DNA of 36,173 bases, taken from Promethearchaeota archaeon. Its GTDB lineage: Archaea; Asgardarchaeota; Lokiarchaeia; Sigyniarchaeales; SOKP01. Position 1 is the first letter of the stretch. Every line of letters starts with the position of its first letter. Location of the stretch: NCBI GenBank assembly GCA_019894955.1, contig JAGXNQ010000004.1:11966-48138 (forward strand). The letters are read 5' to 3'. Shown piece after piece: positions 5,278 through 17,049 of the stretch. The notes under the pieces were generated by a model. The model was not told the origin of the DNA. It ran no database searches and saw only the letters and a program-made list of their open reading frames with translations. The translations under genes and the position numbers were made by a program.

Positions 5278-5935
5278 TTAAATTTTTTTTATAAATTTGA
5301 CAACTTCATCGGCCAAAATTCCTTCTGAACCCCAATAGAAGTGATCAGCTCCCTTGATTATGATTTTTTCTTTTGGCTCTTTATAGAGATTATAATGAGA
5401 AAAGAAATTATCATATTTTGCAATAGAATCCTGATCTCCTTGAATAAATAATTTAGGTTTGTTAGTTTGAGACATATTTCTGTAATTTGTTCCCATAAAA
5501 TCCCATGGAAACGAGATCGCACAGTACCCTATAATTGATTTAGTAAAATTTACAGCTGAACATCCGATTGCTGCCCCATAAGAATATCCGCAGATGAGTA
5601 TTGTTTGATTCTCTTTTTTTTGAAGAAAAGTGATACAACTATGAACATCAGATAACTCTCCAGGTCCTCCAGAATGATTTCCAGTTGATCTTTCTACACC
5701 TCTAAAATTGAAACGTAAACACGAGATATTGTTTTTCACTAAATGATCGAAAATAGTTGATATGACATTATTATGCATTGAGCCACCATATTTTCCCTTT
5801 CTTAGGATAATCCTAAAGAAATTGAGGATGAGGATGGCACAGTAAAACAATTATGTCATTATTTTCAATGCTAGATTGAAAAAACTCCGCTTCTAAAGAT
5901 ACCTCATTACCTTGAATCATTATGTTATTAGACAT
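5278..5935 (-). CDS. COG2945-type alpha/beta hydrolase, reading frame split by a 31-base insert (possible pseudogene)
   Basis: This is a serine hydrolase of the COG2945 group. The nucleophile elbow GYSYGAA, the acid in QGDQDSI and the histidine in GADHFYWG are intact, as is LRFNFRGVERS. The family's N-terminal signature is HPHPxYGGSMxNNV. Here LLCHPHPQ lies in one frame, starting from an ATG at 5935, and YGGSMHNNVI in another. The two are separated by exactly 31 extra bases (5791-5821) holding a hairpin and an in-frame TAG. Deleting those 31 bases would give one continuous frame of about 208 residues with canonical spacing. The ORF-track start (TTG at 5850) reads the HPHP region out of frame and is not a credible N-terminus. 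The gene is either a recent pseudogene, expresses a truncated product, or skips the insert. Confidence 0.75.
5791..5821 (-). repeat. 31-base hairpin-forming insertion inside the hydrolase gene
   Basis: On the plus strand the arms TTTCTTAGGAT and ATCCTAAAGAAA are inverted copies differing by one extra base. On the mRNA they would make a stem of about 10 bp with a single bulge and a 3-base loop, followed by GGGAAAA. The in-frame TAG lies in the 5' arm. The segment falls between the Gln and Tyr codons of HPHPQ/YGGSM. There is only a one-base ambiguity in where the insertion could be drawn, so I see no target-site duplication. I did not see a second copy in the window by eye. Confidence 0.7.
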
Positions 5936-7302: not shown

Positions 7303-7974
7303 TTATTTTAGCCATTTTTTAGGGCAACTAGCGAATAATTGTCTAAACATTTTCTCATGTTCTTCAAGATTTTCCTCAGGGATAGTTAATGGATCTCCAA
7401 TTTGCAGTGCACCCCAATATACCTTTGCCAACTTTTCTAATATTACAGCAAACCGAACCGCATGATCAACAGATTTTCCGCATATGATAGCCCCATGATT
7501 TGCAAGTATCGCTGCGTTATTTCTACCTAGCGCTTTCAATGAATTTGGTCCCATTTCTTCTGTATGAGCTTCTGTAATTTCACTACATCGAATTTTTCCA
7601 CCAAGGAAAATAAGTTGTTGTTCCATTATGATTGGAATGCCTCTTCTTAGAACTGAAAGCATAGAAATATAAGGAGAATGATTATGGATAACACTCTTAA
7701 CTTTAGGTCTATCTTTATAAACAGCTAAATGCATTTTAACTTCCGTGGATGGAATTTTACCTGAACCTAACACATTTCCCTCTAAATCCATATGTACGAT
7801 TAGCTCCGGACTTAATAAGCTATATTTTGTCGAAGTGGGAGTAACAAGTATTTCATTTTTATTTATCCGAACACTAACATTGCCTTCTCCATCCTCAACT
7901 AACCCTTTACTATATATCTCTTGAGCTCCTCTTACAACTGTTTTACGAAGTTGTTCTAATTTATCCGTTTCCAT
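7303..7974 (-). CDS. Class II aldolase/adducin family protein (FucA-like)
   Basis: This is a zinc-dependent aldolase of 223 residues, close to L-fuculose-1-phosphate aldolase in length and motif order. GNVSVR and TPTSTKY make the phosphate-binding loops. PSTEVKMH holds the catalytic Glu. VIHNHSPY supplies two zinc His and LANHGAI the third. Aldolases of this group cleave a ketose 1-phosphate to dihydroxyacetone phosphate plus an aldehyde. AraD-type epimerases are related, but the E-containing PSTE motif and the overall pattern favour an aldolase. The substrate cannot be read from sequence. A second, homologous aldolase domain is fused to a dehydrogenase at 15322-17049. The NikR-like gene follows in the same direction. 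Confidence 0.85.
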   Translation of the reverse strand: METDKLEQLRKTVVRGAQEIYSKGLVEDGEGNVSVRINKNEILVTPTSTKYSLLSPELIVHMDLEGNVLGSGKIPSTEVKMHLAVYKDRPKVKSVIHNHSPYISMLSVLRRGIPIIMEQQLIFLGGKIRCSEITEAHTEEMGPNSLKALGRNNAAILANHGAIICGKSVDHAVRFAVILEKLAKVYWGALQIGDPLTIPEENLEEHEKMFRQLFASCPKKWLK

Positions 7975-11254: not shown

Positions 11255-11677
11255 GTGAATCTCTTGGTTAAGGTCCTGCAAGATCTCTATATAATTTCTG
11301 AAGGAGGTATCGTATTATATCATCGTGTTTTTGATGAAAAATTAGATGAACAGCTTTTTGGAGGACTAATGAGTGCTTTAAATTCCTTTGCAGAAGAATT
11401 AACAAATGAGGGTCTTTCGAATTTTGAATTAAAAGACAAGAGATATACTTTAATTAGGAAAAATGACATTTTATTCGTGTCAAATTCTTCTAATAAAATC
11501 AAAGCAAAAAAAGTAATTGAAGAATTAGAAACAATTGTTGAACGTTTTTTTGATTTATATTCTTTAGAACTTTTAGCAACATGGGAAGGAGATGTATCAA
11601 TTTTCCTTGATTTTGAAAAAGAAATAGAGGATAGTTTAGAAGGAACGATTCAAAAATTACAAAAAGCTTTTTGGTAA
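11255..11677 (+). CDS. Longin-like (SNARE-like fold) small protein
   Basis: This 140-residue protein starts at GTG. Its pattern is a strand LYIISEGGIVLYHRVF, a helix LFGGLMSALNSFAEEL, then FELKDKRYTLIRKNDILFVSNSS and helix VIEELETIVERFFDLYS. That is the strand-strand-helix-strand-strand-helix order of longin/adaptin-sigma/sedlin domains, where the first strands carry a hydrophobic 'dxxGxxLyxr' turn. Such domains serve trafficking complexes and GTPase regulators in eukaryotes and are abundant in Asgard archaea. No catalytic residues are expected. It overlaps the convergent downstream gene by 21 bases. The assignment is from fold pattern only. A Roadblock-related fold is the main alternative. 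Confidence 0.55.
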   Translation: MNLLVKVLQDLYIISEGGIVLYHRVFDEKLDEQLFGGLMSALNSFAEELTNEGLSNFELKDKRYTLIRKNDILFVSNSSNKIKAKKVIEELETIVERFFDLYSLELLATWEGDVSIFLDFEKEIEDSLEGTIQKLQKAFW

Positions 11678-15321: not shown

Positions 15322-17049
15322 ATGAAAGTATTTATTACAGCTCAAATGACTCCAGAATCATTACAAAAACTTAGAGATTTATTGCAAGATGAGGTTTTTT
15401 ATGAAAGCTGGTGTGATACAAAGAACATGTATTTCGATGCGGAAGAATTAGTAAGTAAGTTAAAGGAGTATAAAGCAGAAATCTTTATATGTGAGGGTGA
15501 TAATGTTAAGAAGGATGTCTTAGAAAATGTTGATCTTAAAATCATTGGCTCTACTCGTGATGATCCAAATAATATAGACCTCATAACTGCTACAAAAAAG
15601 GGGATTCCCGTACTTTTTACTCCGGGTAGGAATAAAAATGCTGTTACTGAATTGACAATTACTCTTATGCTTGCTTTGATGCGAAAAGTGCATAAAATAT
15701 CACAGATATTACATTCTGATCAATTTAAAGTTGATGAATTTACTGATTATGTTGATTATTACAATCTATTTAAAGGAAATGAGTTGAAAGGTAAAATAAT
15801 TGGTATTATTGGATTAGGAAATGTTGGATTTGAAGTAGCAAAACGCCTGAAAGGTTTTGACGTTGAATTTTTAATCTATGATCCCTATGTTCAAGAATCA
15901 AGGTTGAGATATATCAATGGAGAACTTGTGGATTTAAATACTTTAATGACTAAATCTGACATTATCTCAATTCATTGTCCCCCCACGGATGAAACTGATG
16001 GACTTATTGGTCAAGAACAAATAGATTTAATGAAATCAAGTGCGTTTATTATAAATCTAGGACGTGCATCTATAACGGATGAAGATGCTCTTTATCAAGC
16101 TCTTAAAGTAAAAAAAATTGCAGGTGCCGCTATAGACGTATTCAATATAGAACCTGTAGATCAATATAATGAATTCCTCGAATTAGAAAACGTAATTGTA
16201 ACTCCCCATATAGGAGGTGACACCTTTGAGACAATTCATAATCATAGCATGATGATTGTAGAAGGTATCGAAAAATTAATGAATAATGAAATCCCTTCTA
16301 ACATAATAAATCCAGAAGTGCTTCCAGGATATTCTGCTGATACATATTCCCTCCCAGAGAAAGGAGAAGAGATCCCAATAACCTTATCCAGCTATAAAAC
16401 AGAAAGTAATGAAATACTTAATATTTGTAAAATGATGGTCGAGAAAGGTCTTATTGTAGGTACAGCGGGTAATGTATCTATGCGAATTAAATTTCCAAAT
16501 GGAGATGATGGATTTCTTTTAACTCCAAGTACAGTTTCCTATGAGGATATGACAGTAGATGATATGGTAATAATTGACAAAAATCTTAATGTAATTGTAG
16601 GAACTCGAAACCCTACTTCAGAAAAGCATCTTCACGTAAATATATTACAATCAAGAAGAGATGTGAATGCTGTTATACATTCTCACGCTCCATATTCTAC
16701 TATATTATCAATCGCGCGAATACCTTTAGGTCCTATTGTTGATGAAATCATACCATTTATTGGAGGCTGTGAAGTAGCACAGTATGGAATGGCAGGGACT
16801 GAAGAAATCTCTCAAAAGGCTTTAGTATCATTAGGAAATAATTACGCTGTATTTTTACCTAATCATGGAAATGTATGTATTGGAACGGACATAAAACATG
16901 CATATACAGTATTACAACTAGTCGAATTTGCAGCTAAAATTCAATATCGAGCCTCTTTATTAGGTACAATTTATGCTCTTCCAGAAGAAGCTGAAAATGA
17001 TGAAAAAGAAATGTTCGAAATCATGCGAGAAGCTAATGATATGGGATGA
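15322..17049 (+). CDS. D-2-hydroxyacid dehydrogenase / class II aldolase fusion
   Basis: This is a 575-residue two-domain protein. Residues 1 to about 330 are a D-isomer-specific 2-hydroxyacid dehydrogenase. The NAD-binding loop is GIIGLGNVGFEVAKRL (about 161-176), catalytic Arg in NLGRASI, Glu in DVFNIEPVD and His in TPHIGGDT. Residues from about 355 to the end are a class II aldolase. It has GTAGNVSMR, TPSTVSY, catalytic Glu in PTSEKHLH, zinc His pair in VIHSHAPY and the third His in PNHGNV. Both active sites look intact. The junction is a short linker around 330-355 with no stop or frameshift, so the fusion is genuine in this sequence. The domains might perform consecutive steps, for example aldol cleavage and reduction or oxidation of the product. 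It is probably co-transcribed with the preceding SCP2 gene. Confidence 0.88.
   Translation: MKVFITAQMTPESLQKLRDLLQDEVFYESWCDTKNMYFDAEELVSKLKEYKAEIFICEGDNVKKDVLENVDLKIIGSTRDDPNNIDLITATKKGIPVLFTPGRNKNAVTELTITLMLALMRKVHKISQILHSDQFKVDEFTDYVDYYNLFKGNELKGKIIGIIGLGNVGFEVAKRLKGFDVEFLIYDPYVQESRLRYINGELVDLNTLMTKSDIISIHCPPTDETDGLIGQEQIDLMKSSAFIINLGRASITDEDALYQALKVKKIAGAAIDVFNIEPVDQYNEFLELENVIVTPHIGGDTFETIHNHSMMIVEGIEKLMNNEIPSNIINPEVLPGYSADTYSLPEKGEEIPITLSSYKTESNEILNICKMMVEKGLIVGTAGNVSMRIKFPNGDDGFLLTPSTVSYEDMTVDDMVIIDKNLNVIVGTRNPTSEKHLHVNILQSRRDVNAVIHSHAPYSTILSIARIPLGPIVDEIIPFIGGCEVAQYGMAGTEEISQKALVSLGNNYAVFLPNHGNVCIGTDIKHAYTVLQLVEFAAKIQYRASLLGTIYALPEEAENDEKEMFEIMREANDMG

Follow-up and report, generated by a model that had tools for sequence, protein, structure and literature searches.

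The window, as we call the whole 36,173 nt stretch of DNA analyzed here, comes from a 2.77 Mb metagenome-assembled genome of 244 contigs. On its minus strand (5935..5278) lies a gene for an alpha/beta hydrolase in which the motifs HPHPQ and YGGSM are separated by 31 bases with an in-frame TAG. The minus-strand reading is CAT CCT CAT CCT CAA TTTCTTTAGGATTATCCTAAGAAAGGGAAAA TAT GGT GGC TCA ATG, with the TAG (5815-5813) three codons beyond CAA when read in the upstream frame; the 31 bases introduce a +1 frame change. The ends of the insert are ambiguous by up to 2 bases on the left and up to 1 base on the right, and the cut rule for bulge-helix-bulge (BHB) introns, given below, places it at 5822-5792. 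An earlier note on this DNA had described just such a frame-splitting, stop-bearing insert consisting mostly of an inverted repeat, and both points are confirmed, the repeat comprising 10 bp plus a bulged U with a UUA loop in the predicted fold. The second part of the hydrolase matches Pfam PF20408 above the cut-off, and the Ser of GYSYG, one Asp and one His (S70, D121 and H150 in A4 numbering) are invariant in 13/13 sequences, in agreement with the note's view that the catalytic residues are intact. Rfam gave no match within the window. The parts of the gene are as follows.

5823..5935, minus strand: exon 1 of the hydrolase, MSNNIMIQGNEV...LLCHPHP + CA; open throughout and homologous to the N-terminal region in intronless relatives
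5935, minus strand: start of exon 1 at an ATG, with another ATG at 5920
5792..5822, minus strand: predicted BHB intron of 31 nt, AUUUCUUUAGGAUUAUCCUAAGAAAGGGAAA, with the in-frame TAG; from fold, conservation and scans
5278..5791, minus strand: exon 2 of the hydrolase, A + YGGSMHNN... through the stop codon; from homology, PF20408 and selection

Three other genes of the window were also noted. The first (15322-17049, plus strand) codes for a 575 aa fusion of a D-2-hydroxyacid dehydrogenase and a class II aldolase domain, an unusual pairing, and a stand-alone class II aldolase-like protein, recognized by eye, is specified at 7303-7974 (minus strand). A 140 aa protein (11255-11677, plus strand) matches the first Longin domain of FUZ/MON1/HPS1, a eukaryote-like trafficking domain, at 26.3 bits against a cut-off of 26.1.

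When the window's insert is folded with its flanks, the minimum-energy structure has UCCU of exon 1 paired with GGGA of the intron in a 4-bp central helix, CAA forms a 3-nt 5' bulge, the intron hairpin lies inside and an exon-exon helix (GCCAUC/GGUGGC) outside. The order of these elements is that of an archaeal BHB, with the 5' bulge inner, the 3' bulge outer and the two on opposite strands. The earlier note had found no BHB and so disfavored tRNA-type splicing, a judgement overturned by the presence of this helix with 3-nt bulges at both splice points. The predicted elements are the following.

5833..5838, minus strand: outer exon-exon helix, 5' strand, GCCAUC; minimum-energy fold
5825..5828, minus strand: central helix, 5' strand, UCCU, in exon 1; fold, with the CAT CCT codons fixed in 19/19 carriers
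5822..5824, minus strand: 5' bulge, CAA; the predicted cut, CA^A, separates 5823 from 5822; fold and cut rule (PMC2738675)
5798..5821, minus strand: inner intron hairpin (inverted repeat); fold and compensatory changes in 19 sequences
5794..5797, minus strand: central helix, 3' strand, GGGA, in the intron; fold
5791..5793, minus strand: 3' bulge, AAA; the predicted cut, AA^A, separates 5792 from 5791; fold
5782..5787, minus strand: outer exon-exon helix, 3' strand, GGUGGC; minimum-energy fold

The cuts are placed by the rule for the cbf5 intron, between bulge bases 2 and 3 (PMC2738675). Together, CA^A and AA^A would excise exactly 31 nt and bring HPHPQYGGSM into one frame, so that the predicted spliced hydrolase is 208 aa long. 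The fold of the window's intron region has a moderate z-score of -2.28. Among the 19 genomes that carry an insert (see below), UCCU/GGGA, the CAA bulge and a 3' bulge of the form A(A/U)(A/G) are common to all introns of the main type (17/19), and in these 17 the BHB is either the minimum-energy fold or lies no more than 1.3 kcal/mol from it; several relatives have an alternative fold, with small internal loops, that is more favorable than the BHB by about 1 kcal/mol. Pairing of the outer exon-exon helix varies among relatives, and the two introns of genus g4 have a relaxed central helix consisting only of UCC/GGA.

The second part of the hydrolase was searched against 147 related genomes, and the DNA was then read at the matched loci. 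Many relatives have shortened hydrolase open frames, mostly of 174–195 aa against about 217 aa, and the DNA shows that these are short because of a 30–33 nt insert at the same codon. Such an insert is present in 19 Lokiarchaeota genomes, the window's own included: 16 in the window's genus, one in genus g8 (G037) and two in g4 (G034 and G048). At 30 or 33 nt an insert leaves the frame unshifted but contains in-frame stops, while those of other lengths also shift it. The two g4 inserts (L016 of G034 and L031 of G048) are 30 nt long, dissimilar in sequence, and form a 10-bp hairpin. Exact empty sites occur in close relatives; for example, in G006, of the same genus, CAT CCT CAA is directly followed by TAT GGA. 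In relatives lacking the insert, exactly one residue separates HPHP from YGG or FGG, which is the spacing that the earlier note had expected on removal of the 31 bases, and the homologues show no longer in-frame spacer between the two motifs, a finding that would have refuted the note's observation.

Covariation among the 19 inserts supports the hairpin. In a structure-guided alignment, changes on both sides of a pair were found in 19 cells compared to 6.3 in shuffles, and pairing fell from 92% to 35–76% once the partners were slid; this alignment is biased toward the structure, but one based on sequence only points the same way (11 against 4.1). In the outer exon-exon helix, an A-U pair is replaced by G-C through synonymous codon changes (CCA/TAT to CCG/TAC). 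The exon codons facing the intron, CAT CCT, do not vary in any carrier; in non-carriers all four Pro codons are used, CCT in 15/42, a comparison for which the exact test ignores relatedness. Both coding parts of the hydrolase are under purifying selection. Between the window and its closest relative, G011, dN/dS is 0.08 for the part before the insert and 0.19 for the part after it. Exon 2 values are low in other pairs too, while those of exon 1, which is short, are noisy when close pairs are compared. An unguided scan of both window strands for BHB folds combined with open frames returned the hydrolase intron as its sole right-handed hit. The observation is thus more than chance, since the insert has the same position in 19 genomes, its hairpin shows compensatory changes, and the scan of the window gave no other right-handed hit.

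The window's own genome encodes two EndA-type subunits, L072 and L073, and an RtcB ligase. L072 best matches crenarchaeal-type chains (3p1z/3ajv) and retains the active-site His and Lys, while L073 is without the active-site His; since one subunit is catalytic and the other lacks this residue, the pair suggests an (alpha beta)2 type of enzyme, a type reported to be tolerant of relaxed BHB motifs (PMC6379350). The genome also carries tRNA genes with introns of 9–32 nt (L082, L083, L084, L085 and L088; ARAGORN with introns allowed). Some of its tRNA introns are placed by ARAGORN at unusual positions, and the same program lists L089 as a tRNA-SeC (TCA) candidate.

A wider unguided scan of the same kind covered 831 kb from six Lokiarchaeota genomes, with a mirror-image control. 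It returned 33 right-handed hits, five of which were the hydrolase intron, and four hydrolase introns took the top ranks. Because the mirror-image control also gave 33 hits, no second mRNA intron is supported above background in these 831 kb, at thresholds of limited sensitivity that missed 3/8 of the hydrolase introns in the sample; the tRNA introns of the window's own genome, which have short inner helices, went undetected in the strict scan. The crenarchaeal cbf5 intron is absent from this genome, where cbf5 is a single open frame of 349 aa with no stops. A search with the pattern TCCTCAATTTN{12,24}AAAGGGAA found one copy per genome in 16 genomes, always in the hydrolase gene, and none in the others, and the backwards control of the pattern gave zero matches. 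Such genome-wide statements are based on pattern searches and sampled contigs, and within the limits of sample and scan the insert looks like a rare, single-gene intron.

We are highly confident that the 31 bases represent a BHB intron, spliced by EndA and RtcB, in the mRNA of a Lokiarchaeota hydrolase. The transcript of exon 1, intron and exon 2 would fold into a BHB, EndA would cleave each bulge between its second and third base, RtcB would ligate the exons, and the ribosome would then translate a single 208 aa frame across HPHPQYGGSM. Splicing of this mRNA is very probable from its BHB marks, and we infer both that cutting and joining occur in the cell and that EndA and RtcB carry them out. 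RNA-level removal was among the options listed in the earlier note, and the fold, its conservation and the restored frame all favor it.

A different way of crossing the insert would be programmed ribosome bypassing over the hairpin, as in T4 gene 60, and a stop-bearing hairpin between two parts of one protein is indeed suggestive of this. Bypassing of the gene 60 type involves matched take-off and landing codons, with a stop right after the take-off site. In the hydrolase, however, CAA at the take-off site differs from the triplet that precedes the resumed frame, which is AAA in the window and one of AAA, AAG, ATA and GAA in relatives. The window's stop is not directly after take-off but two codons further on, and bypassing has no need for an exon to pair with the intron or for 3-nt bulges placed precisely at both junctions. 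We regard it as very unlikely, and the note had rightly disfavored it for its unmatched codons. Alternatively, the hairpin might be regulatory and halt translation, exon 2 being reached by read-through or translated separately; a conserved hairpin within a coding region could have such a role. However, purifying selection acts on exon 1, which holds the conserved HPHP motif, the protein of intronless relatives is continuous, and the bulges at the exact junctions would be left unaccounted for; this explanation deserves hardly any credence.

Three alternatives remain. The in-frame stop and frameshift are what would be expected of a hydrolase broken by a palindromic insertion and now decaying, but the insert is retained in 19 genomes with a compensated structure, and the gene is not a pseudogene because the coding parts on both sides are under purifying selection, with their catalytic residues invariant. 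The note's pseudogene option is contradicted by this conservation and the low dN/dS, and we consider it extremely improbable. A short palindrome might be a mobile element that inserted into the gene, a tiny element of this kind having also been proposed in the note; however, the main-type insert occurs once per genome, always in the hydrolase gene, and is therefore not a mobile palindrome, nor is there any duplication of target bases beyond chance A's, so that this origin is scarcely credible. The window does come from a fragmented metagenome assembly, which might raise the question of an assembly or sequencing artefact, but the 19 carriers come from many unrelated sequencing projects, and the insert differs between them in sequence while preserving its structure. 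An error of assembly would not turn up again in 19 separate assemblies, so the insert is not one, in line with the note, which thought a 31-base error an odd artefact, and the probability of an artefact is practically negligible.

If the insert is a BHB intron, its history has been one of repeated change. Mapped onto a protein tree of 56 sequences, intron presence requires five changes, compared to 15.3 in shuffles, and at least three of the five are forced by well-supported branches. For example, G006, which lacks the intron, adjoins G008, which has it (support 97/89), and G030 and G037 differ in intron presence (support 100/100). The g4 introns may have been gained independently of those of g1 and g8, at the same codon. 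A bolder and rather doubtful reading is that Lokiarchaeota repeatedly gain mRNA introns at one hot spot and that splicing is regulated instead of being baggage that is merely tolerated. Asgard archaea are the group nearest to eukaryotes; if the hot-spot reading were true, they would still be gaining and losing mRNA introns through the tRNA-splicing enzyme. Given its 19 natural carriers, together with clean empty sites and evident gains and losses, this intron makes the turnover of archaeal mRNA introns directly testable. There is also a practical side, as gene callers will misreport such genes as broken or truncated.

Work by Watanabe (2002) and Yoshinari (2006) reportedly dealt with the cbf5 pre-mRNA intron of Crenarchaeota. 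As of 2020, the cbf5 mRNA of crenarchaeota was stated to be the only one known with an additional BHB intron (PMC7714728). We found no report of mRNA introns in Asgard archaea or Lokiarchaeota in the open-access literature, although a subscription paper or preprint may have been missed, and within the open literature the hydrolase would be a second protein gene with a tRNA-type intron, in a phylum other than that of the cbf5 carriers. Like the crenarchaeal cbf5 intron (Yokobori 2009, PMC2738675), it is short, lies inside an archaeal protein frame and has a BHB-like fold, and the two also share cuts between bulge bases 2 and 3 (predicted here), a patchy pattern of gain and loss, and a host with a hetero-oligomeric EndA. 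It differs in its gene, an alpha/beta hydrolase, in its Asgard host, and in that splicing is here predicted from sequence. With T4 gene 60 it has in common that a hairpin and a stop codon separate two parts of a frame, but BHB geometry and exon-intron pairing take the place of matching take-off and landing codons. Archaeal tRNA introns, the substrates of EndA, have the same fold and presumably the same enzymes, and examples occur in the window's own genome, but the host RNA here is an mRNA. A BHB in an mRNA is also found in Haloferax volcanii HVO_1309, where EndA acts as it is predicted to do here; the BHB sites of that transcript, however, are in the 5' UTR, whereas the hydrolase intron lies inside the reading frame (PMC7714728).
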